From the NCBI RefSeq assembly GCF_002258785.1, contig NZ_NOYI01000009.1, positions 124,001-188,000 on the forward strand: a stretch of DNA of 64,000 nt, read 5' to 3'. The stretch's first letter is position 1, and each line of letters begins with the position of its first letter. The translations under genes and the position numbers were made by a program. This DNA is from Rhodococcus sp. 06-235-1A. GTDB lineage: Bacteria; Actinomycetota; Actinomycetes; Mycobacteriales; Mycobacteriaceae. Under the pieces are notes generated by a model. It was not told where the DNA came from. It searched no databases and saw nothing but the letters and a program-made list of their open reading frames with translations. This document shows positions 19,106-40,916 of this stretch, in pieces.

Positions 19106-19159
19106 CCACTCAATGTGACGTTCAGTGGCCTTTTCGGGGGTCAATGGCACATCGAGTGG
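19106..19159. repeat. 54-bp palindromic repeat, copy A
   Basis: Starts CCACTCAATGTGACGTTC and ends AATGGCACATCGAGTGG, with the loop GTGGCCTTTTCG. The arms are complementary over about 17 positions with few mismatches. It lies between the convergent AraC/GyrI and MarR genes. Confidence 0.88.
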
Positions 19160-19184
19160 ACCCGCACGATGTGGGTCCGAACAA

Positions 19185-19628
19185 TCAGGAATACCCGCGG
19201 GCCAAGATCGTCGTCAGGTCGGCCAGGGCTGGGGTGGCCGCAGACAGCGCTCGCCGGTGGTCGGGTGTCAGTTCGTCGAGTGCGTCCGAGAGCACCTGTG
19301 AGCTGACTGCGTCGTATTCGGCGAGGAGTGCAAGGGCCTTCGGTGATGCTGTGAGGGCCGCACCGCGTAGGTCCCCCGATGAGACCGATCTTTCGACGAG
19401 CCCCGCGTCGACCATCGCTTTGATCAGGTTGCTCACGGTGGAGCGGGCGAGGTTGAGGTATGCGGCGAGGTTTCCCGGGCTCATCGACGGTCCCCCGGCG
19501 AGGGCTCGCATGACCTCGATGTGCGAATCCGGAATGTCGGGCAACTGAGCGGCTTCTCGCGTCGCACGAAGCAACGAACGTCGTAGCGGTCCCAGTTGCC
19601 GACCGAGCTCGATCGCGGTGGAGTGCAT
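19185..19628 (-). CDS. MarR-family regulator, probable repressor of the phenolic acid decarboxylase gene
   Basis: 147 residues from ATG 19628; a TTG at 19661 is in frame. The MarR winged helix is clear: DIPDSHIEVMRALAGGPSMS, then NLAAYLNLARSTVSNLIKAM (about 62-82) and the wing VERSVSSGDLRGAALTASPK. It is divergent from the decarboxylase gene, with a TTTTGTGACAAAA palindrome between them. Phenolate-sensing repression by PadR or MarR proteins of such decarboxylases is well known, so this is the expected sensor. Confidence 0.88.
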   Translation of the reverse strand: MHSTAIELGRQLGPLRRSLLRATREAAQLPDIPDSHIEVMRALAGGPSMSPGNLAAYLNLARSTVSNLIKAMVDAGLVERSVSSGDLRGAALTASPKALALLAEYDAVSSQVLSDALDELTPDHRRALSAATPALADLTTILARGYS

Positions 19629-19667
19629 CGTTCGATGGTCGCACAGATAGTTTTGCCGCAAACATAG

Positions 19668-19680
19668 TTTTGTGACAAAA
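19668..19680. promoter_or_regulatory. Palindrome TTTTGTGACAAAA, candidate MarR operator
   Basis: A perfect 13-bp palindrome (odd centre), 7 bp before the decarboxylase ATG, in an AT-rich patch that also repeats ATAGTTTTG at about 19647-19655 and 19664-19672. It lies within the MarR/decarboxylase divergent spacer. Confidence 0.6.
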
Positions 19681-19687
19681 TTGTCCT

Positions 19688-20215
19688 ATGGAAACAGAGA
19701 CCACAGTTGAGAACCCGATTCCGACTCAGGACCTCCGCGGCATCGTCGGACACCGATTCATCTACACGTACGCGAACAACTGGCAGTACGAGATGTACGT
19801 CAAGAACGCCACAACCATCGACTACCGCATCCACACCGGCATGGTCGGCGGACGATGGGTCAAGGATCAGGAGGTCGACCTCGTTCAGCTCGATGACGAC
19901 GTCTACAAGATCTCCTGGAACGAACCCACGGGAACATCGGTTGTCGTCAACGTCCTACCCGGTAAACGACGCTTACACGGCACCATCTTCTTCCCTCAGT
20001 GGATCGAGCTCGACGGTACGAAAACCGTTCTATACCAGAATGATCATCTCGACGAGATGCGCGCCTACCGTGATGCGGGGCCGACCTACCCCATCTACGT
20101 GGTCCCCGAGTTCGCCAAAATCACGCTATTCGAAAACGTCGGCAGCGACGACGAGACGATCGTGTCGGTCGCGCCGGCTGACCTACCCGACGGATTTGCC
20201 GACCGAACCAACTAA
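19688..20215 (+). CDS. padC: Phenolic acid decarboxylase
   Basis: A 175-residue cytosolic enzyme of the cofactor-free PAD family, which converts p-coumaric, ferulic and caffeic acids into vinylphenols. Family hallmarks are [20 protein letters not shown] (about 14-33), [18 protein letters not shown] (about 40-57), [11 protein letters not shown] and [20 protein letters not shown] (about 100-119). The length matches characterised enzymes (160-180). It is controlled by the divergent MarR gene and is followed after one base by a DUF3237 gene, suggesting an operon for plant-derived phenolic acids. Confidence 0.92.
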
Positions 20216-20216
20216 C

Positions 20217-20672
20217 GTGCGCCCTGAGCTGACCTTCGTCGCACATCTGTCGGTGATCGTGGGTGACCCGATCGACCTGGGCGAGGTGGTCGATGGTCAC
20301 CGTCGCCTCGTCCCGATCCTGGGCGGGACCGTCGAAGGCCCTCTCCTACGCGGTCGAGTCCTGCCCGGCGGGGCGGATCACCAAATTCTCCGCACTGCCA
20401 CACTCACCGAGCTGGACGCCAGATACGCGCTCGAGACCGACGCAGGCGAACGAATCGCCGTACACAACGTGGGGACTCGAAGCGGTACCGAGGAGGACAT
20501 CGACTCACTGGTACGCGGCGAACAAGTCCCTGCCGACCGCATCTACTTCAGGAGCCAACCACGACTGTCCTCCGCTTCGAGCCGACACGCGTGGATGAAC
20601 GAGCGCTTGTTCCTCGGATCCGGCGAACGATTGCCGAACTCAGTGGAGTTGGACGTGTACCAGGTCAATTGA
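20217..20672 (+). CDS. DUF3237-family protein
   Basis: 151 residues from GTG 20217, one nucleotide after the decarboxylase stop, so they are co-transcribed. It has the DUF3237 pattern: an opening PELTFVAHLSVIVGDPID, then GGTVEGPLLRGRVLPGGADH (about 38-57), the acidic ETDAGERIAVHNVGTR (about 76-91) and a final FLGSGERLPNSVELDVYQV. These beta-barrel proteins occur beside aromatic-compound genes, but their reaction is not established. Longer upstream frames in the same phase are shadows of the decarboxylase. Confidence 0.85.
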   Translation: MRPELTFVAHLSVIVGDPIDLGEVVDGHRRLVPILGGTVEGPLLRGRVLPGGADHQILRTATLTELDARYALETDAGERIAVHNVGTRSGTEEDIDSLVRGEQVPADRIYFRSQPRLSSASSRHAWMNERLFLGSGERLPNSVELDVYQVN

Positions 20673-20687
20673 ACCGCCCGACGGCAT

Positions 20688-20741
20688 GTACTCAATGTGA
20701 CGTTTGGTGGCCTTTTCGGCAGTCAATGGCACATCGAGTGG
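20688..20741. repeat. 54-bp palindromic repeat, copy B
   Basis: Begins GTACTCAATGTGACGTTTGG and ends AATGGCACATCGAGTGG, in the same orientation as copy A. It lies between the convergent DUF3237 and PPOX genes. Confidence 0.88.
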
Positions 20742-20754
20742 ACATGGGGGGCCG

Positions 20755-21183
20755 TCAAATCGACTGACCGTAGACGTGGGTGACGGCAATCGTCACCAGT
20801 ACTCGTCGGTCGGCGACCATGACTGCTCGGTATTCCGTCCAGTCAGGGTGCTCACCGGCCGCGGCGCGGTAGTAGTCGACCAGTGCCTCGGTTTCGGGGC
20901 TGTTCGGTGAAGTGCCCGGCCCGGTGAGGGTGACGGTCCCTTCCGCCGTTGCCCATGCCTTACCGTCGGGGCTGGTCACTTCCAGCGCGGCACGCGGGTC
21001 TCGGCGCAAGTTGGCCGTTTTCGCCCGCCCTTCGGTGACCGAGATCCGGATGGTGCCGGCTGCCCGGTCGTAGAACGGCGTCACCGGAGACAGCTGCGGT
21101 AGTCCGCTGGCCTTGATGGTGGCCAGCACTCCGATTCGGCTTTGCTCGAGCAAGTCGTGTGGATCGAATGCATTGCCGGTCAT
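20755..21183 (-). CDS. PPOX-class (flavin/F420-binding split beta-barrel) protein
   Basis: 142 residues. The split-barrel pattern RIGVLATIKASGLPQLSPVT (about 16-35) followed by RISVTEGRAKTANLRRDPRA (about 46-65) is characteristic of the actinobacterial PPOX group, most of which bind coenzyme F420. It probably reduces an unsaturated or quinone-like substrate; cofactor and substrate are not provable here. It overlaps the upstream TPR gene by ATGA, so the two are translationally coupled. Confidence 0.88.
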   Translation of the reverse strand: MTGNAFDPHDLLEQSRIGVLATIKASGLPQLSPVTPFYDRAAGTIRISVTEGRAKTANLRRDPRAALEVTSPDGKAWATAEGTVTLTGPGTSPNSPETEALVDYYRAAAGEHPDWTEYRAVMVADRRVLVTIAVTHVYGQSI

Positions 21184-21659
21184 GGATTCCCCTCAGGTCG
21201 TGTGGACAACTCGGCCGCGTATGCCCCGATTGCGCGGCGGTACTTCCCCAGCGCCGGATGCGCTGCGTGCAAGGCGTTTTGCAGTGCCCGTTCACCTCGA
21301 CCGAGATCCCACAGGGTCAGCGCGGCGAATGCGTCACGTGCAGAGATGTATTCACTGGAGAACTCGAAGTTCTGCAGCACGTCGAGCGCTTCGTGTAAAC
21401 GCCCGACATTGCGCAACGAGCTGGCCAGTTGAATCCGGGCCTGATTCTCTCTGTCGACATCGAGCCCTCCGGACAGGGACGCCTCGTACAACGGGACTGC
21501 GGCTGCCCCGTCGCCGAGAAAGTCCTCCAACGATGCACGCTCGAACATCATGCGAGCGTCCGAATACGGTGCGGTGGAAAGCAGGTGGTCCATCTGCATC
21601 CGCATCCGTACGGGATCGGTGTCGTCCGCTTCCCGCCAGAACGCCGCTAGCGGGTCCAC
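21180..21659 (-). CDS. Tetratricopeptide-repeat protein
   Basis: 159 residues from GTG 21659 behind GGGGGAGG. It is all-helical and matches the 'TPR repeat group 5' type: FERASLEDFLGDGAAAVPLY (about 38-57), ARIQLASSLRNVGRLHEALD (about 73-92) and FAALTLWDLGRGERALQNAL (about 110-129). This is probably a protein-protein interaction module. It overlaps the PPOX gene by 4 nt. No partner is identifiable. Confidence 0.82.
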   Translation of the reverse strand: MDPLAAFWREADDTDPVRMRMQMDHLLSTAPYSDARMMFERASLEDFLGDGAAAVPLYEASLSGGLDVDRENQARIQLASSLRNVGRLHEALDVLQNFEFSSEYISARDAFAALTLWDLGRGERALQNALHAAHPALGKYRRAIGAYAAELSTRPEGNP

Positions 21660-21764
21660 GGTGCCTCCCCCTGCTGCAGCTCGTTCGTCGAGTGCGCTGA
21701 ACCTACTCGCACAGGTGCTGTCGTCACGGGCTCCATCGTCGCAGACACCGCTTAGTCTCGACGG

Positions 21765-22667
21765 ATGGATGTGGAACTGTCCCTGCTCAAGCTACTGGTG
21801 GAGATCGACCGCAGCGGGTCGATGACGGCCGCTGCCGAACGGCTCATGTACACCCCATCGGCGGTGTCTCAGCAGGTCAAAAGACTCGAGTCCGTCGTGG
21901 GCACCCCCGTCGTCGAGCGACATGCGCGCGGAGTGCGCCTCACCGAAGCCGGTCGGCTCGTAGCCGGGAGAGCCGCGGCCATCGACACGCAACTGTCTGC
22001 CCTGCGCGCCGACCTCGACGATCTGCTCGACGCCCGCAGCGGCCACGTCACCCTCGGCGTCTTCCCTTCCTTCGCTGCATCTCTTCTGCCGGACGTCATG
22101 GGCGCGTTTCGCTCCGCGCACCCGGGGATCGAGCTGGGAATACGGTCGTCACGGCTACGCGATCTGCACGCCATGCTGCTCGGCCGTGAGGTGGATCTGT
22201 CCTTGGCATGGGATTACCCGGAACTGCCGATGATGGTCGACGACGTCGAGACCGAGGTCATCGCCGACGACGCCACCGTTCTTCTCGTTCCGGCGGGTTG
22301 GTCGCGCGGAGGTCCGATTCTCCTCGACTCGCTCGCAGACGAGCAGTGGATCGTCCGCGCATCGCAGCACGCCATCACCACGATGTTCCGATCGGCCTGT
22401 CTCAAAGCGGGATTCGAGCCGAAGGTCCTCGTCGAGTCCAACGACTACATGGAATCTCAGGCAATGGTGGCAGCCGGACTGGGACTCACCGTGGCACCAG
22501 CCATGACCACTCGCTACCTTCGCGATGGCGTGGAATCCATCGCTCTGGACGAACTCTCGCGGCGTCGAATCCTGCTGTGCCGGCTCGATCAACGAACGCC
22601 GTCACCCGCCGCGAAGGCTATGCGATCGGTTCTGATCGCGTTGTTCCAAGCTATGAATTCGGCTTAA
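21765..22667 (+). CDS. LysR-family regulator
   Basis: 300 residues with a leaderless start (TAGTCT 6 nt before the ATG). The N-terminal HTH (about 5-62: SMTAAAERLMYTPSAVSQQV) is followed by a substrate-binding-like domain. It lies 114 bp upstream of the dehydrogenase/CitMHS pair on the same strand and probably regulates that operon, sensing its tricarboxylate. The opposite-strand reading frames are shadows. Confidence 0.88.
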   Translation: MDVELSLLKLLVEIDRSGSMTAAAERLMYTPSAVSQQVKRLESVVGTPVVERHARGVRLTEAGRLVAGRAAAIDTQLSALRADLDDLLDARSGHVTLGVFPSFAASLLPDVMGAFRSAHPGIELGIRSSRLRDLHAMLLGREVDLSLAWDYPELPMMVDDVETEVIADDATVLLVPAGWSRGGPILLDSLADEQWIVRASQHAITTMFRSACLKAGFEPKVLVESNDYMESQAMVAAGLGLTVAPAMTTRYLRDGVESIALDELSRRRILLCRLDQRTPSPAAKAMRSVLIALFQAMNSA

Positions 22668-22781
22668 GTCCGATGTAAGAAACAGTCTCTGGTCTTCACG
22701 CTGGTGGCACGGCAAGGTATGCCACAGGTCACAACGAGGGCCGAGTCCGCAACGGTGCGGACGTGAACACCTGGAGACATC

Positions 22782-23891
22782 GTGACATCCGGATATTCCG
22801 ACTCCGCCCGTCCCAACACCGTCGAACTGGTGGTTCTCGCCGGAGACGGCATCGGTCCCGAAATCAGCTCCGCGACGGTTTCTGTCGTAGAGGCCGCGCT
22901 CGCACGCAACGGCATCACCGCCACCTTCACCGTCGGCGTCATCGGATTCGAGGCACATCGCGCATCGGGGACAACGATGCCCGACGCCATCGTCGACCTC
23001 GCACGCACAGCCGACGGCGTCATCCTGGGCCCGGTGTCGCACCTGGACTACCCCCCGGCGTCGGAGGGTGGCGTCAACCCGTCGGGAATACTGCGGCGAA
23101 AGTTGGATCTGTACGCCAACATTCGGCCCGCAAGGACCGTCCCGGCCCTGCCGAATCCTCTCGGCAAGAAGTTCGACCTCGTGATCGCCCGAGAGAACAC
23201 CGAAGGCTTCTACGCCGACCGCACCATGTTCGCAGGTGGTGGCGAATTCATGCCCACCGAAGACCTCGCCCTCGCCATCCGAAAAGTGACGCGACGTGGT
23301 TCCGAACGAATTGTTCGCCGCGCCTTCGAGCTTGCACAGACGCGTCGATCGAAGGTCACAGTGGTACACAAAGCCAACGTCCTCAGGCTGAGCGACGGAC
23401 TGTTCCTCGAGGCCGCCAGGGCCGTCCGACAGGACTTCCCCGATGTCGACTACGAGGAGCTACTGGTCGACGCAGTCGCGGCACTTCTCATCCGTCGACC
23501 GGAGTCCTTCGACGTCATCGCCACCACCAACATGTTCGGGGACATCCTGTCCGACGAGGCGACCGAACTCTCGGGCAGCCTGGGGTTGGCAGCGTCGCTG
23601 AATGTCGGCGACACGCATGCCGTCGCACAGGCTCAACACGGATCGGCACCCGATATCGCCGGGCAGGGAATCGCCAACCCGGCATCCTTGATCGGCTCTG
23701 CGGCCATGCTCCTGGACTGGATCGGGCAACAGCGCAGCGACGAAAGAGTCTCTGCAGCCGGACAATCGATCCATCGAGCCATCGACACCGCAGTAGGCAA
23801 GCCCGAGACCCGCACAGCGGACCTCCACGGAACCGCGACAACCGAGCACTTCACACGCGCGGTGATCGAGCACCTCGATTCGGAGGCCTGA
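22782..23891 (+). CDS. Isocitrate/isopropylmalate dehydrogenase-family enzyme
   Basis: 369 residues from GTG 22782 (CTGGAGA upstream). A beta-decarboxylating dehydrogenase: VVLAGDGIGPEI near residue 16-27, the substrate-loop arginines in ILRRKLDLYANIRPAR (about 103-118), DLVIARENTEGFYADR (about 129-144), the Lys of KANVLRLSDG (about 190) and the metal aspartates in DVIATTNMFGDILSDEA (about 244-260). It could act on isopropylmalate, homoisocitrate, tartrate or a related 2-hydroxy acid. It stands apart from leu genes and sits 3 nt before a citrate-type transporter, so catabolism of an imported tri- or dicarboxylate is favoured. Confidence 0.85.
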   Translation: MTSGYSDSARPNTVELVVLAGDGIGPEISSATVSVVEAALARNGITATFTVGVIGFEAHRASGTTMPDAIVDLARTADGVILGPVSHLDYPPASEGGVNPSGILRRKLDLYANIRPARTVPALPNPLGKKFDLVIARENTEGFYADRTMFAGGGEFMPTEDLALAIRKVTRRGSERIVRRAFELAQTRRSKVTVVHKANVLRLSDGLFLEAARAVRQDFPDVDYEELLVDAVAALLIRRPESFDVIATTNMFGDILSDEATELSGSLGLAASLNVGDTHAVAQAQHGSAPDIAGQGIANPASLIGSAAMLLDWIGQQRSDERVSAAGQSIHRAIDTAVGKPETRTADLHGTATTEHFTRAVIEHLDSEA

Positions 23892-23894
23892 ATC

Positions 23895-25211
23895 GTGCTG
23901 GCAGTACTCGGATTCGTCTCTCTTGCATCCTTCATGCTGGTGGTCATCAAGAAGTGGGCGACGGCTCTGGTTGCCGTCGTGACCATCCCGATCGCGGTCC
24001 TGCTGATCAGCGGTCAGGGGGCGGCACTACCGGACATGGTGGCAGAGGGCATCGAAACCGTCGCTCCCACAGCGATCCTCCTACTGTTCGCCGTCCTGTA
24101 TTTCGGGATCATGATGGACGCCAAACTGTTCGACCCCATTTCGCGTGGCATCATCCGGTTGTCCGGAGGTGACCCCGTCAAAATCTGCGTCGGCACAGCG
24201 GTTCTCGCACTCCTGGTCGCACTCGACGGCGACGGCACGACGTCGTACATGATCATTTGCTCTGCGTTTCTTCCCATCTATCGCAAGCTCGGAATCAATC
24301 CCCTGGTTATCGCCACGATCGCGACGATGGCCCTCGGGACCATATCCGGCACCACCCCCTGGGGTGGAGCTGCGACCCGAGCGATCAGCGTGTTGCAGAT
24401 CGACGCCACCGACTACTTCGTACACATGCTGCCGGCGATGCTGCTCATGTCTGCGGCGATCATCGGGCTCGCGTACCTGTTGGGCCGCAGCGCACGGAAG
24501 AAGATCTCCCCTGAGCGCATCGCCGAAGTCACCGCGCACGTGTCCTCCGGCGGGCACGACAAGGGCTCGGAAGGAACACTTCTGACGAAGGCATCCTGGC
24601 GAACCTGGGTCAACGCAGCACTGACGGTGACCTTGCTGGTGCTGCTGGTGCTGGGAGTTGCCGACCTACTGGTGCTGTTCATGCTGGGATTCATCATCGT
24701 GCTGGTCGTCAATCACCCCAAGCCCTCCGATCAGGGCGAGGTGATCCGATCGCACGCAGCCAACGCCGTCCCCGTCGTCATATTGGTCCTCGGTGCCGGC
24801 GTGTTCACAGGAATCCTCACCGAGACCGGTATGACCACCGCCATGGCCGACGCGCTGATCTCGCTGATTCCGGACGGCGCCGAGGGCATGATCCCTGCCG
24901 CGGCCGCATTGATCGGCATACCGTTGAGCTTCTTCATGGCCAACGATGCCTACTTCTTCGGGATCGTGCCGGTCCTCGCGGAATCGGCTGCGCAGTACGC
25001 CATCCCACCCGAGGAGATGGCGCGCGCCGCAGTGATCGGACAGATGGCTCACTCGATCGGACCGGCGTCGGCGCCGTTGTGGGTCCTTCTCGGCTTGGTC
25101 CGCGCATCACTGGGCGACTTCCAGCGCTTCGCATTCCTGTGGATACTGGCCGCATCGCTGATGTACATCGTCTTCGCGATACTCACCGGAGCAATCTCGG
25201 TCGGTCTGTGA
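23895..25211 (+). CDS. CitMHS-family metal-tricarboxylate transporter
   Basis: A 438-residue membrane protein with about twelve helices, starting at GTG 23895 just after the dehydrogenase stop. It fits the CitMHS family, which imports citrate complexed with Mg2+ or Ca2+: LFAVLYFGIMMDAKLFDPIS (about 60-79), ALDGDGTTSYMI (about 110-121), GTISGTTPWGGAATR (about 150-164) and FFMANDAYFFGIVPVLAE (about 345-362). With the LysR regulator and the dehydrogenase it forms an uptake-and-oxidation unit for citrate or an analogue. Confidence 0.9.
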   Translation: MLAVLGFVSLASFMLVVIKKWATALVAVVTIPIAVLLISGQGAALPDMVAEGIETVAPTAILLLFAVLYFGIMMDAKLFDPISRGIIRLSGGDPVKICVGTAVLALLVALDGDGTTSYMIICSAFLPIYRKLGINPLVIATIATMALGTISGTTPWGGAATRAISVLQIDATDYFVHMLPAMLLMSAAIIGLAYLLGRSARKKISPERIAEVTAHVSSGGHDKGSEGTLLTKASWRTWVNAALTVTLLVLLVLGVADLLVLFMLGFIIVLVVNHPKPSDQGEVIRSHAANAVPVVILVLGAGVFTGILTETGMTTAMADALISLIPDGAEGMIPAAAALIGIPLSFFMANDAYFFGIVPVLAESAAQYAIPPEEMARAAVIGQMAHSIGPASAPLWVLLGLVRASLGDFQRFAFLWILAASLMYIVFAILTGAISVGL

Positions 25212-25212
25212 T

Positions 25213-25581
25213 CTATTGTGCTGCTACGAATTCGATTCGATTACCCACTCCGTCACGGGTATGGAATCGTCGACGACCCGGTATCTCGTCCACGTCGGCC
25301 CAGTCCACCGGATATCCGGCAGACGTCAGCGCTGCAGCGGTGGTATCGACGTCGACGGCGAAGGCCGGGTGCGCCTTGAGCGCCGGGCGAAAGTCGTCCT
25401 CGATGCCGACATGCACCTCGCCATCGGGACCGCCCACTCCCGGCACGCGAAACCAACAGCCCCCGCGGACTGCCAACAACGGCGGTTTCGCGATTTCCTG
25501 CCAGCCGAGCGCACCCGAGTAGAACTCGCGCTCACGGTCCTCGCCGCCCGCCGGGCATGCGACCTGCACGTGGTGAATCAT
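25213..25581 (-). CDS. VOC-family protein
   Basis: 122 residues. ATG 25581 is set by TACGTT 6 nt upstream (leaderless); the longer open frame is an antisense shadow of the NTF2-like gene. It is a VOC fold with IHHVQVACPAGGEDRER at the start, paired modules, and a RFHTRDGVGNRIEFV end. It converges with the CitMHS gene, their stops lying one base apart. The substrate is unknown. Confidence 0.85.
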   Translation of the reverse strand: MIHHVQVACPAGGEDREREFYSGALGWQEIAKPPLLAVRGGCWFRVPGVGGPDGEVHVGIEDDFRPALKAHPAFAVDVDTTAAALTSAGYPVDWADVDEIPGRRRFHTRDGVGNRIEFVAAQ

Positions 25582-25635
25582 CGAACGAACGTACCGCCAT
25601 CTCGATTGACACGTCGGTGAACGGTAGGCAAACGT

Positions 25636-26112: not shown

Positions 26113-26149
26113 GGTCGCCTGCCCTCGTCCGGGTTCACCACCTCCGCCG

Positions 26150-26203
26150 GTACTCGATGTGACATTCGGTGGCCTTTTCGACGGTCGATGTCACGTTGAG
26201 TGG
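26150..26203. repeat. 54-bp palindromic repeat, copy C, overlapping an ABC gene stop
   Basis: Begins GTACTCGATGTGACATTCGG and ends GATGTCACGTTGAGTGG. The last codons and stop of the btuD-like gene (complement 26191-26203) are formed by the right arm, so the element appears to have landed at, or become part of, the gene's end. It sits between convergent genes. Confidence 0.88.
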
Positions 26204-26988
26204 ACTCGGGGGGCGGGTGGGGCGGGAGATTGCGGGCGACGGTAGGTCACCTGTGGATAGTTGTCGGCATTCGTCACGGTGGCGTGCACGTTGTATACCG
26301 ATCGCACCAGGTGTTCGGTGATCACATTTCCAGGGGTGCCCGAAGCCACGATGGTGCCCTGGTCGAGGACGATGATCCGGTCGCAGAACATGGCTGCCAG
26401 GTTGAGGTCGTGCAGCGCGATGTAGCTGCTCAGGGGTAGGCCTGCGACGAGGGTGAGGATGTCGAGTTGATGTTGGATGTCGAGGTGATTGGTCGGCTCG
26501 TCGAGCAGTAGTTCGGTGGGTTGCTGGGCGAGGGCGCGCGCGATCTGGACTCGCTGGCGTTCGCCCCCGGAGAGGGTGTGCCAGCGGCGGGTGGCTTTCG
26601 ACGCCATCGCGGTATCGGCGAGCGCCTGCGCGATCGCTACGTCGTCGTCGGCCGCGTCGCCGCCGAGGATCCCGTGGTGGGGGATGCGGCCGAGGCGGAC
26701 GACGTCGCGGACACTGATGTCGACGTCGGTGTCGGAGTGTTGGTCGACCATCGCCACGCGTCTGGCCACCCGCCGTCGACGCAGGGTCCGCAGGCTGTCT
26801 CCGTCGAGCAGGACGTCGCCGCCGTCGGGGGCGACGATCCCCGCGAGGATGCGCAGCAGCGAGGATTTTCCCGAACCGTTGGGACCGATCAGCCCGATGG
26901 TCTCTCCCGGTTCGGGCGCGAAGCTGATGCCGTCGAGGATCGGGTGCCCGCCACGGGTCCATCGAATGTGGTTGGCGTGCAATGTCAT
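26191..26988 (-). CDS. btuD: ABC transporter ATP-binding protein of the corrinoid/siderophore (BtuD/FecE) type
   Basis: 265 residues from ATG 26988. Walker A is GPNGSGKSS (35-43), the signature LSGGE is at 139-143 and Walker B LLLDEP at 160-165, followed by the H-loop in ALHDLNLAA. It belongs to the iron-chelate/vitamin B12 import family. It overlaps the permease gene by 4 nt. The cobalamin riboswitch at the head of the operon makes corrinoids the likely cargo. The C-terminus runs into repeat copy C, which supplies the final residues. The gene symbol rests on the riboswitch. Confidence 0.85.
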   Translation of the reverse strand: MTLHANHIRWTRGGHPILDGISFAPEPGETIGLIGPNGSGKSSLLRILAGIVAPDGGDVLLDGDSLRTLRRRRVARRVAMVDQHSDTDVDISVRDVVRLGRIPHHGILGGDAADDDVAIAQALADTAMASKATRRWHTLSGGERQRVQIARALAQQPTELLLDEPTNHLDIQHQLDILTLVAGLPLSSYIALHDLNLAAMFCDRIIVLDQGTIVASGTPGNVITEHLVRSVYNVHATVTNADNYPQVTYRRPQSPAPPAPRVHST

Positions 26989-29035: not shown

Positions 29036-29074
29036 CGTCAGAGAGCTTCCTGCTGAGGGCTCGTGTCGCGGAGC

Positions 29075-29192
29075 CGCGGATGGAGGTGAATCACGACGTC
29101 CGAGCATTCGGACTTCGAGCTCTCACTCGTCACCGTTGCGCGCCAGCTCCGGATTTGCACCGGATTCCCTCGTTCGTCGCGTGCTGACCCTA
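29075..29192 (-). promoter_or_regulatory. Cobalamin riboswitch with its promoter, upstream of btuFCD
   Basis: Read on the minus strand, AGGGAATCCGGTGCAAATCC (from 29170) continues into GGAGCTGGCGCGCAACGGTG. This is the conserved core of cobalamin riboswitches (GGGAA, CCGGUG-AA-UCCGG stem, and the B12 box, here in the actinobacterial GCGCGCAACGGTGA form). TAGGGT at 29187-29192 is a suitable -10. A GTCCGA/TCGGAC stem and a CCTCC stretch follow before the btuF start and may sequester its ribosome site. This implies repression by B12. Confidence 0.85.
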
Positions 29193-29213
29193 TCGTGCGG
29201 GACCCCTCAACGG

Positions 29214-30413
29214 TCAGCGTGCCGCTGCTGTCACCGGCCCCTGTGCATAGCTGCGTGGAAAGGTGTTGCGCGCCAGGACGACAACGGCCAACGCTGCGCC
29301 TACGAGCGCCGTTGCAGCAGCGGTGACGGCCACGATGCCACTGAGGTCGATCACGACGCCGCCCACCAGCGCGCCCGTCGCGATCGCCAGTTGGAAAGCA
29401 ACCACATAGATCGCCGACGCCTTGTCCGCATCGGCCGGTGCTGCTCTGACCACGGCCGATTGAATACACACCGGGAGGGTGGTGAATGCCAGCCCCCACA
29501 ACGCGATGGCACCGACGGCGAACACGGCCCAGCTGCCCGGTGCCCCGCTCAGAGTGCACCAGAGAATTGCCACTGCCGCTGCGACCGCACCCAGTGCCCC
29601 GATGGTCGAGTGCCGGGGCCACCGGTCGTAGGTTCTGCCGATCACCCAGATGCCGATCACCCCGAACAGTCCGTACAGCATCAACATCAAGGTCAGGGTG
29701 GTTCCCGCCGATCCGATGGCACGGTCGACGATCACCGAGAAGTACGTGTACGCGGCGAAATGACCGAGGACAGCCAGGAACGTCACGCCGCACAGAATGG
29801 CCAGGGAGCCGTCGAGCACTCGCGGTGTCTCTTTCGTTTCCGAGACCGCTCGGGCGACCGGAAGCGCCGGGAGTACGAAGTACAGTGCCACAGCGATGGC
29901 TGCGGCGACGATGCCGAGAATCGTTGCTGCCGTGCGCCATCCGAACCACTGGCCCAAGGCTGCCGTGAGTGGGTTGCCGGCGACCAACGCCAACGAGGTG
30001 CCCGCGTAGACCGTGGCGATGGCCTTGCCCTGCCTACCGGGCAGCGCAAGGGACGCGGCGACGGGCGCGACGACGGCCCAGAAGACTCCGTGCGTCGCGG
30101 CGCAGAGCATTCGAGAGATCACCAACATCGGATAACCGACGGAGACCGCCGAGAGGAGTTGCGAGAGTGCGAGTGCGGCAACGGTGATGACGACGACGCG
30201 TCGGCGCGGCCATTCGCGTACGAACCTGATCAACGGCATCGTCATCACGGCGACGCCGTAGGCATAGAAGGTCAGGAGGAGCCCGACGGCCGATTCGCTG
30301 ACACCCAGGTCGCCGGAGATCTCGGGGAGCAAACCCACGGGCAGCGTTTCCGCTGTGACGTAGATGAAGGCGGCCGCGGCGAGCACGAGCAGTCTCGGTA
30401 GAGGTGACGACAT
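29214..30413 (-). CDS. MFS transporter of the AraJ/CynX-like DHA1 type
   Basis: A 399-residue, 12-helix major facilitator. It starts MSSPLPRLLVLAAAAFIYVT, with the EISGDLGVSESAVGLLLTFY first loop and RPRR-like basic loop (WPRRRVVVIT, about 68-77) typical of drug/sugar efflux proteins. It is divergent from a LacI regulator, with the palindrome TGTGTA-TCGT-TACACA starting 3 bp before its ATG, so that regulator very probably represses it. Sugar or arabinose-like efflux is suggested by the AraJ-like look but is not proven. Confidence 0.86.
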   Translation of the reverse strand: MSSPLPRLLVLAAAAFIYVTAETLPVGLLPEISGDLGVSESAVGLLLTFYAYGVAVMTMPLIRFVREWPRRRVVVITVAALALSQLLSAVSVGYPMLVISRMLCAATHGVFWAVVAPVAASLALPGRQGKAIATVYAGTSLALVAGNPLTAALGQWFGWRTAATILGIVAAAIAVALYFVLPALPVARAVSETKETPRVLDGSLAILCGVTFLAVLGHFAAYTYFSVIVDRAIGSAGTTLTLMLMLYGLFGVIGIWVIGRTYDRWPRHSTIGALGAVAAAVAILWCTLSGAPGSWAVFAVGAIALWGLAFTTLPVCIQSAVVRAAPADADKASAIYVVAFQLAIATGALVGGVVIDLSGIVAVTAAATALVGAALAVVVLARNTFPRSYAQGPVTAAAR

Positions 30414-31525: not shown

Positions 31526-31537
31526 TAGGTCGTAAAA

Positions 31538-32971: not shown

Positions 32972-32985
32972 CCCAAGGAACGAAC

Positions 32986-33405: not shown

Positions 33406-33425
33406 CCCTCACGAGACACCTCCGT

Positions 33426-33479
33426 CCACTCGATGTGACATTCGGTGGCCCTTTCGACCGTCGATGGCACATCGAGTGG
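33426..33479. repeat. 54-bp palindromic repeat, copy D
   Basis: Begins CCACTCGATGTGACATTCGG and ends GATGGCACATCGAGTGG. The arms match over 12 bp, then one mismatch, then 4 more. It lies between the tandem PPOX and GNAT genes. Confidence 0.88.
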
Positions 33480-33548
33480 ACATGACGATCTGCGAACTGC
33501 AGTCAAAATGGCTCGCCGATGCGCGGCGTGGCCGTCAGACTGACTGCC

Positions 33549-34103: not shown

Positions 34104-35074
34104 GTGCGGTCCACTGTCGGGCGCATCGTGACGTTCGGTCGAGGTCGTGCCCTTGCCTGTTCGTAGCGTGCCCGCAAATCCGACAACACCCGTTCCGGAT
34201 TGTCACGTATGTCGCTCGGCAGGTGTGTCACGACGATGAGGCCCGCGTTCTGCGCTCGCTCACGCCGCTCCACCGTCGCTCGGTGGTCTGCAGGGGACAG
34301 GTGGTACTCGAGCGAATCGATCTCCCAGTCCAACGCGACGTCGTCGAGCCAATTGTCGGCGATCAGCAGGAACTTGCCCTGCTCGTCGTACACAGCAACG
34401 TTGTGGTGCATCGCCGGAAGCCCGCTGCGGCCGTACAGCTTCTGGGCCTTGGCCTCCGCCACCGAGTGTGCGCCCGTCGCCAATTCCCTCAACACTCGCC
34501 GGGGCATCGCAGTTCCCCGCGTACTACCGGCGTTCAGCTCCTTCATGATCGCGTCGACGGTGGCCGCTCCCCTCTGCACGACACGTGCAATCAACGCCAT
34601 GCACTGCTCGGTGTTCTTCATTCGGCGGACCGCGTCGCACAAGCATCGAACGACGGGCGCGACGCGCAGCCCCGACTTGATCTCCGGCGGCGGCATCCGC
34701 CACGTGCGCTCCACCGCAGCGAAGCCCACGGACTTTCGATGTTGCGCCTCGGGAATGAGGGCGAACGTCTCCTCGAACGACCCCGGCGGGAGCAATCCGT
34801 GCAGCGCCAACCCTGCCCGACCGCTGATCACAGCATCACTCCCGCAGTAGATCGACACCGCGGTCGCGCGTTCCAACTGCGTCAACGAACGGTTCGTCAA
34901 GAACACCAACCCAGGCAGCGCCCGTGACCAGATACCGTCCGGGAGTGTGCGTCGGACAATGGTCTTCGAGGCCACCCCGAGCTCGAGCAGCTTCGCCGTC
35001 CGCACCAACCCTCGATCCGACGCAGCCGCGATCACCTTCGCATCGATTCGTGCGCCGCCCCGTTTCATGAACAT
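34085..35074 (-). CDS. AbiEi-like winged-helix protein with a DUF559/Vsr-type nuclease-like C-terminus
   Basis: 329 residues from ATG 35074 (ATG 35068 also possible). The N-terminus (AKVIAAASDRGLVRTAKLLELG and RTLPDGIWSRALPGLVFLTN) fits the AbiEi/'transcriptional regulator' winged-helix domain found in type IV toxin-antitoxin antitoxins. The C-terminus (FLLIADNWLDDVALDWEIDS, EYHLSPADHRATVERRERAQ) has the D...E-x-D pattern of the Vsr-like DUF559 fold. Such two-domain proteins are abundant in actinobacteria and their role is unknown. No AbiEii toxin gene is adjacent. Confidence 0.75.
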   Translation of the reverse strand: MFMKRGGARIDAKVIAAASDRGLVRTAKLLELGVASKTIVRRTLPDGIWSRALPGLVFLTNRSLTQLERATAVSIYCGSDAVISGRAGLALHGLLPPGSFEETFALIPEAQHRKSVGFAAVERTWRMPPPEIKSGLRVAPVVRCLCDAVRRMKNTEQCMALIARVVQRGAATVDAIMKELNAGSTRGTAMPRRVLRELATGAHSVAEAKAQKLYGRSGLPAMHHNVAVYDEQGKFLLIADNWLDDVALDWEIDSLEYHLSPADHRATVERRERAQNAGLIVVTHLPSDIRDNPERVLSDLRARYEQARARPRPNVTMRPTVDRTYRQSG

Positions 35075-35386
35075 GATGATGCGCTGCCCGCACGACACGA
35101 TTGGCACATGACGACGGACAACAGAATGCCCTGTGGATAACTCTTTGCCTGTGGATCGACTCGGAATCCGATCGCCGGCATCGAGGGCCGATGCGAGCCC
35201 GCAACCGCCCGCCGCAACCGCCCGCCCGCCGACCGTCTCAGGTCCACTCGATGTGCCATTGACCGTCGAAAAGGCCACTGTCGGTCACATTGAGTGGGCG
35301 GGAGGTGCGGGCAATGATCGCAGAGTCGGGGGCGACGGGGATACCGTCTACTTTGCATACATGCATTCTGACTTCGGGAGTGAGAC
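35075..35386. other. 312-bp intergenic region holding repeat copy E and the lysX promoter
   Basis: The region lies between the divergent AbiEi-like and lysX genes. It contains repeat copy E (35244-35297), Pro/Arg-coding-looking GC-rich sequence without a credible gene, and, towards lysX, TACTTT (35349-35354) as a candidate -10 with CGGGAG before the lysX ATG. Confidence 0.55.
35244..35297. repeat. 54-bp palindromic repeat, copy E (inverted orientation)
   Basis: Reads CCACTCGATGTGCCATTGAC at the left and CGGTCACATTGAGTGG at the right, so it is in the opposite orientation to copies A-D and F. On the minus strand it gives the same GTGGCCTTTTCG loop. It lies between divergent genes. Confidence 0.88.
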
Positions 35387-38300
35387 ATGACGGCGACAGC
35401 AGTTCCCTCGGAGCGGTCCGGTTCTACGACTCCACGGTCGTTCGTTCCGCCCGAGCGAGGTCGGTTGAGTGAGGTTCCGCATATCGCGGGGCTGGTGCTC
35501 GGGGTGTTCGCCGTGCTGTTGTTCTTGTGGAGTCTGTCGCCCACTCTGCGTTTTCTGATTCACGTTCCTCGCGAGTACGTGGACCGGTACTACTTCGACG
35601 CGCCGGACACGAGTTTGTCGTGGGCGCTGGTTGTCGGGTTGTTGGCGGCAGCGTTGGCGAGTCGCAAGAGAATTGCGTGGTGGTTGCTGACGATCTATCT
35701 GGTGTTGTTGGCGATCACCAATGTCGTCGAGGGTATCCAGGACAAGAACGTCAACTCGTGGATCGCACTGGCTGTGCACGTTCTGGTGGCCGGGGTGCTG
35801 GTCGCGTCGCGCAAGGAGTTCTACACCCGGGTCCGCCGTGGCGCGGTCTGGAAGGCGCTCGGCGTGCTCGTGCTCGGAGCGGCCGTCGGAACGATTGTCG
35901 GGTGGGCGCTGGTGGCCTTGTTCCCCGGTTCGTTGCCGGAAGGTCAGACATTTCTGTGGGCGTTCAACCGCGTCACGGCGTTGGCGACGGTGGACAACGA
36001 GCAGTTCGACGGCAGGCCCAACGGTTTCGTCAACACGGCGTTGGGCTTGTTCGGTGCATTGGCGTTGCTGGGCGCGATTTTCACGTTGTTTCGGTCGCAG
36101 CGGTCCAGCAATGCGCTCACCGGTCGCGACGAGTCCGCTCTCCGCGGTCTGCTCGACAAGTGGGGTGCCGACGATTCCCTCGGATACTTCGCCACCCGCC
36201 GCGACAAAGGTGTCATCTTTGCCACGAGCGGCAAGGCGGCGGTGACGTATCGCGTCGAGGTCGGGGTGTGTCTGGCCAGTGGGGACCCGATCGGCAATCC
36301 GGAGGCATGGCCGCACGCGATATCCGAATGGTTGGACCTGGCCGAGAAGTACGGCTGGACTCCAGCTGTCATGGGGGCCAGCGAGATCGGAGCCACCGCG
36401 TACAAGCGGGCCGGCCTCAGCGTCCTCGAACTCGGCGACGAAGCGATCCTGAAAACCAAAGACTTCAACCTCAATGGACGCGAGATGCGCCCCGTGCGTC
36501 AGGCGGTCAACCGGGCTCGCAAAGCGGGTGTCGTGGTCACCGTGCGTCGTCATCGGGACATTTCGTCGGAGGAGATGTCGGAGATCATTGCCTGCGCGGA
36601 TGCGTGGCGCGATACCGAGACCGAGCGCGGTTTCTCGATGGCGTTGGGCCGCCTGGGTGATCCGCTCGACGGCGATTGCCTTCTGGTGCAGGCGATTCAG
36701 GGCGAGAAGGTGATCGGTGTTCTCTCGCTGGTGCCGTGGGGCCGCACGGGCGCGTCGCTGGATCTGATGCGCCGGGATCCGGCATCGCCGAACGGGGTGA
36801 TCGAGCTGATGGTGACCGAACTCGCGACCAGCGCAGACCATTTCGGCGTCAGCAAGATCTCGCTGAACTTTGCGGTGTTCCGCGCGGCGTTCGAGGAGGG
36901 CAGCCGAATAGGGGCCGGACCGGTACTGCGGATCTGGCGCAGCGTGCTGGTGTTCTTCTCGAGATGGTGGCAGCTCGAGGCCCTGTATCGCTCGAACGTG
37001 AAGTACCTGCCCGAGTGGGAACCCCGCTACCTGTGCTTCGCAGACAATCGGGTGTTGCCCAAGGTCGGAGTCGCTTCTGCCATCGCCGAGGGCTTCCTTA
37101 CCCTCCCGACCTTCCGACGGGCGTCGACGCACACCGGATCCCATGTCGCTGTCCCCGCCGCTCTGGCCGACGCCGAGGACATTCATCCGGACGGCAGTGG
37201 TCCCGACAGCGTTCTCGACGAGCAGACAGCGAGTCGCAAGCGCCCCGACCAGGTGCGCGTGCGGATGTCGAAGCTCGATCGCCTCGAACGCGAGGGCACA
37301 GAGGGCTATCCCGTCGCCTATCCCCCGACTCACACGGTCGAGGCAGCAGTGACCTCGCCGCAGGGTACAACGGTGCGAATCGCCGGACGTATCCTGCGGA
37401 TCAGGGATTACGGCGGCGTCGTATTTGCTGTGGTCCGCGACTGGTCGGCCGACATTCAGGTGCTGTTCGACCGCGATCGCGTCGGCGATTCGATCGAGAA
37501 CTTCGACGCCGATTTCGACCTCGGCGATCTCATCGAGGTCAGCGGCACCATCGGACGCAGCAAGCGCGGAGAGCTGTCGCTACTCGCGAGCGACTGGCGA
37601 ATGAACGCCAAGTGCCTGCACCCGTTGCCGGACAAGTACCGAGGACTCACCGACCCCGAGGCCCGGGTGCGGCAACGCTACGTCGATCTGGCCATCAATC
37701 GCGACGCTCGCGCGCTGATGATCGCTCGCTCGAATGTCGTCAAGTCACTGCGTGATTCGCTCAGCGAGCGCGGGTACATGGAAGTGGAGACCCCGATTCT
37801 GCAGCAGGTGCACGGTGGCGCGAATGCAGCGCCGTTCGTGACTCACATCAATGCCTACAATCTCGATCTCTACCTGCGGATCGCCCCGGAGCTGTACCTC
37901 AAGCGCCTGTGCGTCGGCGGTATGGAGAAGGTGTTCGAGATCGGTCGCGTGTTCCGCAACGAGGGCGCGGACTTCAAACACAATCCCGAGTTCACGATCC
38001 TCGAGGCGTACGAGGCCCACAGCGACTACGAACGCGCAATGGTGTTGTGCCGCGAACTGATTCAGCGGGCAGCCGTCGCGGCACACGGTCGCGAGATCAT
38101 CCTGCGCCCCGACGGTCCCAACGGGGAGATGATCGAGATCGACATCTCCGGCGAGTGGCCCGTCAAGACGCTGCACGGTGCCGTCGCAGAGAAGTTGGGA
38201 GTGCCCGTCGAACCGGCGACTCCTCTGGAGGAGCTCCAGCGTCTGTGCGAAGAGAACGACATTCCGTACGAGAAGACCTGGGACGCAGGAGCGCTCGCCC

Positions 38301-38698
38301 AGGGAATGTACGAGCACCTCGTCGAGGACTACACCCAGTTCCCCACGTTCTACAAGGACTTCCCGACGTCGATGTCGCCACTGACGAGGCCGCATCGCAG
38401 CATCCCGGGCGTCGCGGAGAAGTGGGATCTCGTTGCGTGGGGTGTCGAACTGGGAACGGCATACAGCGAACTGACTGACCCCGTCGATCAGCGGCAACGA
38501 CTCACCGAGCAATCACTGTTGGCGGCAGGCGGCGACGAGGAGGCGATGAGCTTGGACGAGGACTTCCTGCAGGCACTCGAGCACGGAATGCCGCCGACCG
38601 GTGGTCTGGGAATGGGCGTCGACCGCGTCGTCATGCTCATCACCGGAGGCAGCATTCGCGAGACGCTGGCGTTTCCGCTGGCCAAGCCTCGTCAGTGA
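35387..38698 (+). CDS. lysX: LysX: lysyl-phosphatidylglycerol synthase fused to lysyl-tRNA synthetase
   Basis: A 1103-residue fusion. The N-terminal part has about six to seven membrane helices (within 25-245) and a DUF2156 lysyltransferase domain (about 255-560; ending with [15 protein letters not shown]). The C-terminal part (about 610-1103) is a class II lysyl-tRNA synthetase with an OB fold ([20 protein letters not shown]), motif 2 ([20 protein letters not shown]) and motif 3 ([17 protein letters not shown]). LysX adds lysine to phosphatidylglycerol in the membrane and protects actinobacteria against cationic peptides. Its length and order match mycobacterial LysX. It makes its own Lys-tRNA. 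Confidence 0.96.
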
Positions 38699-38806
38699 TG
38701 TCCTCTGCAACCGAGCCAATTGGACGAACCGGCCAGAAACAAGGAACATGACTGTAAACAGTGGCGGAAACCGGAAATGCGTCACGCATATCGCCCTGGA
38801 GACGAC

Positions 38807-39703
38807 ATGGACCTCGAAGCCCGAACCGAGCCAGCAGCGTTGTTTCCCGTGAAACATCCGCCTGGGCAGTTCGTCGAGGTCGACGGCCAGCGCCTCCACA
38901 TTCTCGTGCGCGGCTCGGGCCCCACGATCGTCCTGTGCGGCGGATTGGGCAGCAATTGGTTCGACTGGCAGGACACGGTGAACATTCTCGGCGCCGAGCA
39001 CCGCGTCGTCGTCATCGACCGGCCCGGCTTCGGACTCAGCGATCCATTGCCTGCCGGTGCCACCCCTACCGTCCGGGGCGAAGCCGACCGCATCATCGGT
39101 GTCCTCGATGCACTCGGTGCCACGGAACCGGCGGTGGTCGCCGGTCACTCGATCGCCGGCTTCTACGCCGAAGCCGTCGCCCGGCTGTACCCGTCGCGCA
39201 TCCGTGGGGTTCTGCTCCTCGATTCCAGCGCCGAATCCGACCCTCGACGCATCATCCCGGCCGCCGTGCGCGTCGAAGCTGCACACGTGATCGCCACGGT
39301 GCTCAGCAGAACCGGTCTGCAAAAACTGGTCGGACCGCGTGCGCGCCGAGTTCTCAACCAGGCGACCCCGCCCGACGGCACGCCGCAGGAGACATTCGAC
39401 TGGGTGGATGACATCTATCGCCGGCCCACCTATCTTGCCGCCGCGTTGATGGAAGACGTCGTGTACCCGGATCTCGCCGCCGAACTGAACCGCATTCGTC
39501 AGAGATTCGAGCTCGACGTCCCCGTTACCGTCGCGGCGGCACATACCGGCCGGCCGTCGCCCTGGGCAACACGGTGGATCCGAACCCAGCGCAAGCTGGC
39601 CGAGTACCTGCAGGCCGATTTCACCGTTGTCGTACCGGCGCACCACCACGCCATGATCGACAAACCCGCCGAGGTCGCGGCCCTCATCGCCGAACTGGTG
39701 TGA
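38807..39703 (+). CDS. Alpha/beta hydrolase
   Basis: 298 residues from ATG 38807 (TGGAGA upstream). It has an alpha/beta-hydrolase fold: VEVDGQRLHILVRGSGPTIV (about 21-40), the GxSxG elbow GHSIAG (about 112-117, Ser nucleophile), the acidic residue possibly in TVAAAHTGRP, and a final His in VVPAHHHAMIDKP (about 276-284). The substrate is unknown. It lies 108 bp after lysX, with an ACTGTAAACAGT palindrome (38751-38762) in between, so it may have its own promoter. Confidence 0.85.
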   Translation: MDLEARTEPAALFPVKHPPGQFVEVDGQRLHILVRGSGPTIVLCGGLGSNWFDWQDTVNILGAEHRVVVIDRPGFGLSDPLPAGATPTVRGEADRIIGVLDALGATEPAVVAGHSIAGFYAEAVARLYPSRIRGVLLLDSSAESDPRRIIPAAVRVEAAHVIATVLSRTGLQKLVGPRARRVLNQATPPDGTPQETFDWVDDIYRRPTYLAAALMEDVVYPDLAAELNRIRQRFELDVPVTVAAAHTGRPSPWATRWIRTQRKLAEYLQADFTVVVPAHHHAMIDKPAEVAALIAELV

Positions 39704-39803
39704 ACCGCTCGAGGCGACGCACGTAACGTGTGTCCCCGAGCCCGTAGCCCAAGACCCGAGCCGAAGCTCGGCGATGGCGCGGTAGCACGAGAGGAAATTG
39801 AAG

Positions 39804-40808
39804 ATGGGTGCGATCAGCACGACGCAGGGACGACAGTCGAAACTACTCGGACTCGGCGTTCACCGCCCCGAACGAGTCGTGACCAACGACGAGATCTGCG
39901 AATTCATCGACTCCAGTGACGAGTGGATTCAGACGCGCTCGGGAATCAAGAACCGGCGCTTCGCCGATCCCGAGGAAAACGTCGTACAGATGTCGATCTC
40001 GGCAGGCCGCAAAGCCCTCGAGGCCAGCGGAATCACGGCCGATCAGGTCGACACCGTCATCGTGGCCACCTCCACGCATCTCGAGCTGACACCACAGGCA
40101 GCAGCGAAGGTCGCGCACGGACTCGGCACCAAGGGGCCCGCCGCATTCGACATCTGCGCCGGCTGCGCAGGCTTCTGCTACTCCCTGGCCGTCGCATCCG
40201 ACCTCGTCAAGGCCGGAACTTCCAAGTACGTCCTGGTCATCGGTGCCGAGCAGCTCAGCGTCACCACCGACCCATACGACCGCACCACGCGCTTCATCTT
40301 CGCCGACGGCGCAGGTGCCGTGGTCGTCGGACAGAGCGACGAAACCGAAATCGGACCTGCCGTCTGGGGCTCGGACGGTTCGCAGTCCGACGCCATCGTC
40401 CAGACCATCGACTGGTACGACTACATCACCAAGGCCGACATGGAACGCCCCTGGATCCGGATGAACGGCATCTCCGTTTTCCGCTGGGCCGCATTCGAGA
40501 TGGGCAAGGCAGCACAGAAGGTACTCGACGTCGCAGGCATCAAAGCCGACGAACTGCACGCCTTCATCCCCCATCAGGCCAACAGCCGCATCACCGAACT
40601 ACTGGCCAAGAGCCTCAACCTCGACGAGGGAACCCCGGTCGCCAACGACATCGCCGAAACCGGCAACACCTCGGCAGCCTCGATCCCCTTGGCCATGGAA
40701 GAACTCCTACGAACCGGCAAAGCAAAAGCAGGCGACACCGCACTGCTCCTCGCCTTCGGTGCAGGACTGTCCTACGCCGGACAGGTCGTCAAACTCCCGA
40801 ACCTGTAG
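39804..40808 (+). CDS. Beta-ketoacyl-ACP synthase III (FabH-like)
   Basis: 334 residues from ATG 39804 (AGAGGA upstream; an in-frame TTG lies two codons earlier). A FabH-type thiolase fold with a complete Cys-His-Asn triad: Cys121 in CAGCAGF, His257 in PHQANSRI and Asn288 in ETGNTSAASIP. FabH condenses acyl-CoA with malonyl-ACP to start fatty acid, and in this lineage mycolic acid, synthesis. It stands alone here without fabD, acpM or kas genes, so it could serve a dedicated acyl product instead. Repeat copy F follows. Confidence 0.87.
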   Translation: MGAISTTQGRQSKLLGLGVHRPERVVTNDEICEFIDSSDEWIQTRSGIKNRRFADPEENVVQMSISAGRKALEASGITADQVDTVIVATSTHLELTPQAAAKVAHGLGTKGPAAFDICAGCAGFCYSLAVASDLVKAGTSKYVLVIGAEQLSVTTDPYDRTTRFIFADGAGAVVVGQSDETEIGPAVWGSDGSQSDAIVQTIDWYDYITKADMERPWIRMNGISVFRWAAFEMGKAAQKVLDVAGIKADELHAFIPHQANSRITELLAKSLNLDEGTPVANDIAETGNTSAASIPLAMEELLRTGKAKAGDTALLLAFGAGLSYAGQVVKLPNL

Positions 40809-40862
40809 TCGGCAGTACCTCGCGGGCGCACTCGACGTCCGATCGCGCCCGGATCCCCCAGT

Positions 40863-40916
40863 GCACTCGATGTGACATTCAGTGGCCTTTTCGGCAGTCA
40901 ATGGCACATCGAGTGG
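40863..40916. repeat. 54-bp palindromic repeat, copy F
   Basis: Begins GCACTCGATGTGACATTCAG and ends AATGGCACATCGAGTGG, in the same orientation as copies A-D. It lies between the tandem fabH-like and PPOX genes. Confidence 0.88.

Follow-up and report, generated by a model that had tools for sequence, protein, structure and literature searches.

Paired 21-bp units beside the origin in Rhodococcus fascians-like genomes: a candidate array of protein-binding sites

The repeat in the window and its paired units

The stretch analyzed here (the window; 64,000 nucleotides, C32:124001-188000, from the 6.1-Mb draft genome of Rhodococcus sp. 06-235-1A) contains six copies of an intergenic palindromic repeat, which we refer to as the A-element; genomes that carry it are called A-genomes, and those without it A-less. 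The initial annotation had described the copies as 54-mers, three lying between convergent, two between tandem and one between divergent genes, with none in the first 1-19 kb. All six were found at the places and in the orientations described, and the same arrangement was obtained with our gene calls, which are rough throughout and were made for this analysis. A 22-base core pattern (≤3 mismatches) matched the window exactly six times, only at these copies, while shuffled sequences gave 0.02 matches on average and none reached six, supporting the view that the family is not due to chance. The 54-mers are real, but conservation extends 2 bp beyond them: the base that follows is A in 89/93 copies, and the next one is C in all 93. 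The A-element as studied here thus comprises 56 bp.

The results on constraint, covariation and spacing were obtained with 10 of 14 A-genomes (G003, G008, G011 and G030 lie outside this set), using DNA from about +6 to +110 kb, except in the genome under study, where the DNA was not so limited. Offsets are measured from dnaA (C32:212.7 kb), the plus sign denoting the dnaA-to-dnaN direction. When the 93 copies were compared with themselves, the strongest match was a direct repeat of columns 5-26 with columns 36-57 (mean match 0.743). The inverted arms of about 17 bp reported earlier are present, at about 16-17 bp, but their match is slightly lower (0.711). Odd palindromes are centered on columns 43 (0.80) and 12 (0.65); the whole element appears palindromic because each of its units is itself nearly so. 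The layout is CAC, TCRATGTGACRTTCRGTGGCC, about 10 bp (TTTTCG...) and TCRATGKCACATCGAGTGGAC, and the best reading of the element is a pair of directly repeated, near-palindromic 21-bp units (TCRATGTSACRTYSRGTGGMC) with their centers 31 bp apart. A search for same-strand unit pairs at spacings of 22-45 bp, which detects the gapped copies to which the position-weight-matrix scan is blind, gave 31 bp in 93/94 pairs from the 10 A-genome regions and 30 bp in the remaining one. Since 31 bp corresponds to three helical turns, both units would face the same side of the helix. In G030, two overlapping matches 31 bp apart (C19:135063-135127, starting at 135063 and 135094) apparently represent three units in phase.

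We also evaluated whether the arms vary in concert. Among 85 distinct copies, an A.C mismatch is found at pair 7-48 in 41, and A.G at pair 13-42 in 31. Appreciable variation on both sides is limited to pairs 7-48 and 17-38 (mutual information 0.03), many columns of both arms and of the core being invariant. No compensatory change between the arms was detected in these copies, in a test that rests on few varying pairs. The lack of covariation speaks for recognition of the element as duplex DNA. According to these features, the A-elements are very probably binding sites on duplex DNA, and the suggestion of a protein-binding module made in the initial annotation is supported, the binding itself being predicted from sequence.

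The copies and a parS-like site of the window are listed in the table. Copy d53, the only inverted one, keeps its orientation in 10/10 genomes, and f62 shares 13 bp with the 3' end of the gene call to its right.

Table. A-element copies and the parS-like site in the window (positions are those of the window)
Feature	Position	Strand	Offset from dnaA (kb)	21-bp units	Context
h69	19106..19161	+	+69.5	19110-19130, 19141-19161 (31 bp apart)	convergent pair
g68	20688..20743	+	+67.9	20692-20712, 20723-20743	convergent pair
f62	26150..26205	+	+62.5	26154-26174, 26185-26205	convergent pair
e55	33426..33481	+	+55.2	33430-33450, 33461-33481	tandem genes
parS-like 16-mer	38841-38856	+			between d53 and c48; 1 mismatch to ParB consensus
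d53	35242..35297	-	+53.4	35273-35293, 35242-35262	divergent calls, upstream of lysX-like gene
c48	40863..40918	+	+47.8	40867-40887, 40898-40918	tandem genes, FabH-like / PNPOx-like

Positions beside dnaA, retention and distribution

The whole-genome search proposed in the initial annotation gave 14 copies at ≤3 mismatches, and a reversed control pattern gave 0 matches. A sequence-only profile run over 408 kb of the same genome recovered these 14 copies (E < 1e-15) and, beyond them, only weak partial or opposite-strand matches. The contig that bears dnaA, C32, contains 11 of the 14, eight of these being located on the dnaN side of dnaA at a distance of 14-70 kb. To compare positions, offsets were tabulated for 8 of the 14 A-genomes on the dnaA contig only (12/16 copies of G016 and 11/14 of G022). 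The copies fit one set of offset classes, in which only close doublets and losses vary. Recurrent offsets are about +14.5, +20.7, +48, +53.5, +55.4 and +62.7 kb, three sites at +64 to +71 kb, and then +92 to +102 kb. Outliers recur at about -62 to -87, -440 to -453 and -1327 to -1466 kb on one side, and at +150 to +214, +253 to +398 and +653 to +705 kb on the other. The density of the array is greatest at +14 to +100 kb, on the dnaN side. In the single-contig genome G015, 10/16 copies are located at 0..+110 kb (expected 0.33; P 1e-13) and 1/16 on the opposite side; among the copies listed for G023, 11/14 fall at 0..+110 kb. The nine sites of the cluster are oriented 8:1 relative to the origin, and the outer sites are mixed; no preferred orientation toward the origin is proposed.

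These sites are retained and constrained. Within every one of the nine cluster sets (7-10 genomes per set), all the placed genomes show the same orientation, and this includes the inverted site. In the same orthologous sets, the identity of successive thirds of the element is 0.88/0.90/0.93, compared with 0.61 in the 25 bp on each side; flank identity climbs again farther out, where genes start. Orthologous copies are more similar (0.908, 338 pairs) than paralogous copies within a genome (0.859, 302 pairs), so the copies have not been homogenized, and concerted evolution was rejected. The initial annotation had reasoned that copies at identical positions in relatives, drifting freely, would leave a mobile origin unsupported. 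Relatives do share the positions, but the copies do not drift freely, so this argument bears on current mobility and not on function.

Absences are few among the 10 genomes: i70 is missing from the genome under study, and G024 and G026 each lack two of the last three cluster sites (these two genomes were omitted from the corresponding sets). In G014, e55 is absent as a full copy, but a copy 1 bp shorter is present. Close doublets, about 0.15-0.3 kb apart, occur in some A-genomes. Compared with G009, the genome under study lacks about 650 bp between h69 and i70 (window about 19.1 kb), together with i70, a loss apparently caused by recombination between two element copies.

Empty orthologous sites, another check suggested at the outset, could be shown at few places only. 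At the c48 place, three A-less genomes have a shorter intergenic region (57-108 bp unaligned vs 179-184 bp in the genome under study), two of these three bear a different palindrome, and a fourth genome did not align. At b20, the intergenic region is shorter in 4/4 A-less genomes. G010 is shorter and G027 longer at a14, and G027 is longer at e55. Alignment on both flanks failed for every A-less genome at d53, f62, g68 and h69, and G010, the sole A-less genome to align in this way at the +100 site, is longer there. The flanks are too diverged for base-exact target-site duplications to be recognized.

The search of related Rhodococcus genomes, also advised earlier, showed that the A-element is restricted to one lineage. 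In the genus sample, 14/37 genomes carry 12-18 copies, and the other 23 have none at ≤3 mismatches. In a family sample, 11/301 genomes matched, all of them from the same genus, and an exact degenerate pattern run over named-species genomes (84,980) found 64 stretches, all titled Rhodococcus or Rhodococcoides fascians; one matching genome titled R. ruber is probably a misnomer. No copy was found on plasmids or phages (blastn) or in viral contigs (exact pattern). In a tree of six proteins from 10 A-genomes and four A-less genomes, a fully supported branch separates the A-genomes from the others, so a single gain followed by long retention suffices; the clade is a Rhodococcus fascians-like group. 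Among the papers listed by the literature searches, no title or abstract opening gave a description of this repeat, subscription papers and supplements lying outside that search, and PMC3733652 had no match for four actinobacterial names.

Neighboring genes, candidate binders and other palindromes

We examined the gene context of the 11 copies on C32. Six are flanked by convergent genes, four by tandem genes and one by divergent genes, against a background of 60/315 convergent adjacent pairs (P 0.009). Eight of them, including 5/6 window copies, sit 9-54 bp past the stop of a co-oriented gene. According to a cruder ORF listing, one of the three copies off C32 shares 13 bp with an ORF end; the other two lie between large ORFs, and a small ORF overlaps one of them. 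The Pfam kinds of the neighbors are unrelated: regulators, PNPOx, FabH, lysX, an ABC transporter, a luciferase-like protein and an acyltransferase. No transposase was found among the ORFs scanned with Pfam at 16-43 kb of the window. Rfam RF00174, a cobalamin riboswitch, matched at 29038-29226 (-) of the window with a score slightly over the gathering threshold; it lies upstream of a periplasmic-binding-protein/ABC transporter cluster.

Two genes can be proposed as leads to the binding protein. The first encodes an AraC/GyrI-type regulator (window 18227-19096) and stops 9 bp before h69. It is present in the regions of 9/9 other A-genomes and in 0/4 A-less regions, a pattern that is regional only and shared by six genes there, among which it alone has a Pfam DNA-binding domain. 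Proteins of the AraC type often bind direct repeats in helical phase, and this regulator is a candidate lead for the binder. The second, a weak lead drawn from sequence comparison, is the chromosomal parB (C32:220631-220924), which has a 6-residue insertion in ParB_N just before the GERRWRA motif. The length of the ParB_N match is 294 bp in 14/14 A-genomes and 276 bp in 23/23 others; the sequences were read in the genome under study and six A-less genomes, and the rest were assessed by match length. Because the A-genomes form one clade, any character of that clade would show the same pattern.

In addition, we scanned for lone units as possible autoregulatory operators (a control pattern gave 4 matches at ≤3 mismatches). 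One unit with 0 mismatches and one with 1 mismatch were found, both inside ORFs, as well as a third with 2 mismatches. A perfect single unit lies within coding sequence at C32:120559 (+92 kb), with 0-1 changes in six other A-genome regions. A diverged single unit, TCAATGTGAGATTCAGTCGCT, occurs inside a 61-bp palindrome at window 49214-49237 (+), +39.4 kb; it is found in five A-genomes, and five others have an unrelated palindrome near the same offset.

The parS sites were located with the ParB/parS consensus. Five canonical sites (≤2 mismatches) are present in the genome under study at -4.5 to -6.7 kb, and none of the 93 A-elements contains parS at ≤4 mismatches. The parS-like 16-mer of the window (TGTTTCACGGGAAACA in the dnaA direction, 1 mismatch) lies within an alpha/beta-hydrolase ORF; 0.01 such sites are expected from shuffled sequences. 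It recurs at +49.8 to +50.3 kb in 10/10 A-genomes, in each of which it is the sole such match between about +10 and +89 kb. The four A-less genomes compared also have a parS-like site (1-2 mismatches) at +49.5 to +57.2 kb. Given its presence in both kinds of genome, this spot belongs to origin-domain DNA in both. The outlying site probably predates the array, whose densest part surrounds it, and its location inside the cluster fits an origin-domain role without proving it.

Other palindromic families occur in the genus. Family B (about 54 bp, ...GATCGTATGRATGGACCATTCRAGCG) was found in 15/37 genomes, ten with 30-62 pattern matches and five with 1-7; its carriers include G006, G010, G018, G027 and G036, and its copies often form doublets 74 bp apart. 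A and B never share a genome (14 and 15 of 37, overlap 0), and no family B copy was found in viral contigs. In both A and B, the block measures about 54 bp, the outer arms are inverted, and an odd palindrome (column 43) lies 11 bp from the right end. In B, unlike A, the top self-match in six copies is the right-hand palindrome, no direct repeat stands out, and the left half is less A-like; the sequences of both B and C differ from that of A. In three single-contig genomes, 9/34, 6/23 and 8/31 B loci lie at 0..+250 kb (P 9e-6, 1e-3 and 3e-5) and 1, 0 and 0 on the mirror side. This placement supports a tendency toward the origin side shared with A, but it may reflect where such elements insert. 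Family C is a 44-bp intergenic palindrome with 171 and 179 strand matches in two genomes and 28 in a third, plus a single one in each of three more; its carriers include G010, G018 and G027. Both B and C are spread over the chromosome in the listed single-contig genomes. A fourth palindrome, CGAGATCGANGTTGTGCAC..., lies past dnaA at 47.48 kb in G010, 55.11 kb in G027 and 39.85 kb in G015; it occupies the c48 place in two A-less genomes and lies at about +39 kb in five A-genomes.

Interpretation and comparison with known systems

Considering the positions together with the constraint, we judge the chances to be about even that the A-elements have a chromosome-organizing role, as an origin-domain array of sites for a candidate protein. 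Copying within an ancestor is the probable way in which the element spread. In the sequence of events that we propose, a single ancestor of the Rhodococcus fascians clade would have been seeded with about 15 sites in intergenic DNA, mostly just past genes, and purifying selection would then have held them at the same positions. A dimeric protein would occupy each 21-bp unit, two dimers cooperating on one helix face of the site of about 56 bp, and the bound protein might help to tether, bridge or compact the chromosome near the origin, in the way RacA acts at ram and ParB at parS. More tentatively, this may be a lineage-specific, recently evolved organizing system, in which paired-dyad sites mark one side of the origin domain around the outlying parS-like site and the specificity of the cognate protein turns over between lineages, leaving each sister clade with a site of related type but different sequence, either A or B and not the two together.

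Several observations weigh against an organizing role. The canonical parS sites form a separate set on the other side of dnaA, and their presence means that segregation is already provided for. The array is one-sided, and far copies exist, such as those at -1327, -440 and +705 kb in G015. Because the sites are confined to one clade, their role cannot be a universal one. Family B is mostly dispersed and is not enriched at 0..+110 kb (2/34, 0/23 and 1/31), where A clusters; moreover, the 250-kb interval in which B is enriched was picked after the positions had been seen. The Pfam analysis of 39 window and neighboring ORFs, the search for lone-unit sites and the ParB_N census provided leads, but the binding protein was not found. 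The origin-side clustering could reflect local ancestral spread combined with an unrelated function. Finally, 12/16 arm pairs are standard in ≥85% of the 85 distinct copies, and a hairpin could still form, even though pairing is not the trait that selection maintains.

An unlikely alternative is that a transcription regulator uses the elements, placed at 3' ends and in intergenic regions, as operators or 'stoperator'-like sites, with the origin clustering as a by-product of their first spread. Their position just past the stops of co-oriented genes agrees with this explanation, as does the AraC/GyrI gene that ends beside h69 and is confined to A-genomes in the regions compared. The neighboring genes, however, are of unrelated kinds, and most sites lie outside promoter positions.

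It is distinctly unlikely that the copies are functionless fossils of a REP/MITE-like element that spread locally in an ancestor and is now immobile. A complex 56-bp element present in a dozen places must have been copied, its copies are intergenic and enriched between convergent genes, and the genus holds other dispersed palindromic families of variable copy number, B and C. Nevertheless, functionless copies would drift with their flanks, while the A-elements keep their identity and exact spacing; they show no concerted evolution, and a RAYT gene is missing from the genome under study. Regarding the MITE-like nature proposed in the initial annotation, the inverted terminal arms of about 16-17 bp are consistent with it, but current mobility is not, given the single shared set of offset classes.

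It appears improbable that the copies act as RNA elements or as bidirectional terminators at the ends of genes. The long palindrome, the gene-end position, the T-run in the core and the many standard arm pairs would suit such a role, and a 12-bp GC-rich complementary stem, with Ts after it, encloses the -86.9 kb copy. In contrast, pairing is not maintained by compensation, which also argues against the terminator module considered earlier, and Rfam gave no match at the gathering threshold at the six window copies. A simple terminator scan (window 18.8-27.0 kb, covering three of the six copies) detected none at the elements. General insertion into terminator loops was rejected as well, since flank complementarity over the 93 copies (4.73) is not clearly above that of shuffled pairs (4.57 ± 0.12, largest 4.85).

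A still active mobile element driven by a putative transposase is hardly credible: close doublets and the deletion between two copies would be compatible with it, but, doublets apart, the dnaA-contig copies of eight genomes fit one set of offsets, and none was found on phages, plasmids or viral contigs.

If an organizing role is correct, the A-elements would represent a new origin-domain binding system, born from repeat seeding within one genus and then frozen by selection, and would offer a rare view of how sites of the parS, ram and matS type originate and change specificity. Owing to the A/B split, the proposal can be tested in closely related soil and leaf bacteria. These results also caution that not every small intergenic palindrome is a REP or a MITE.

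Consensus sequences of known sites were compared with the 93 A-elements. The ram consensus, GACCATGGTC, had no match in them at ≤2 mismatches, and neither did the SOS box, CIRCE or CRP/GlxR. The DnaA box (≤1 mismatch) occurs in 3/93. The matS motif (≤2 mismatches) occurs in 29/93, which we judged to be chance overlap with a short degenerate motif.

The REP/REPIN relationship suggested in the initial annotation is not supported. The A-element resembles REPINs in being an intergenic palindromic repeat of two palindromic halves, and differs from REP/REPIN systems with a RAYT in having positions common between species and strong constraint. The high, dispersed copy number of REP/REPIN sequences is not seen either, with 12-18 copies per genome that are clustered as in G015. 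The RAYT/TnpA-REP family PF01797 (Y1_Tnp), whose search had been recommended, matched 1/37 genus genomes (G030, an A-genome) and not the genome under study, and a RAYT-driven REP was rejected.

Parallels are also found among chromosome-organizing sites, the nearest functional one being RacA at ram. Like parS, the A-elements are palindromic sites near the origin with a conserved position; unlike them, they are distinct from the parS set at -4.5 to -6.7 kb and from the single parS-like site at +50 kb. The ram sites of RacA in Bacillus subtilis are described as dense near the origin and also distributed over the rest of the chromosome (PMC6593407). To that extent the A-elements resemble them, being repeated sites whose density is highest near the origin; they differ from ram in that each is a fixed pair of dyads 31 bp apart, located in intergenic DNA and arranged in a one-sided array.

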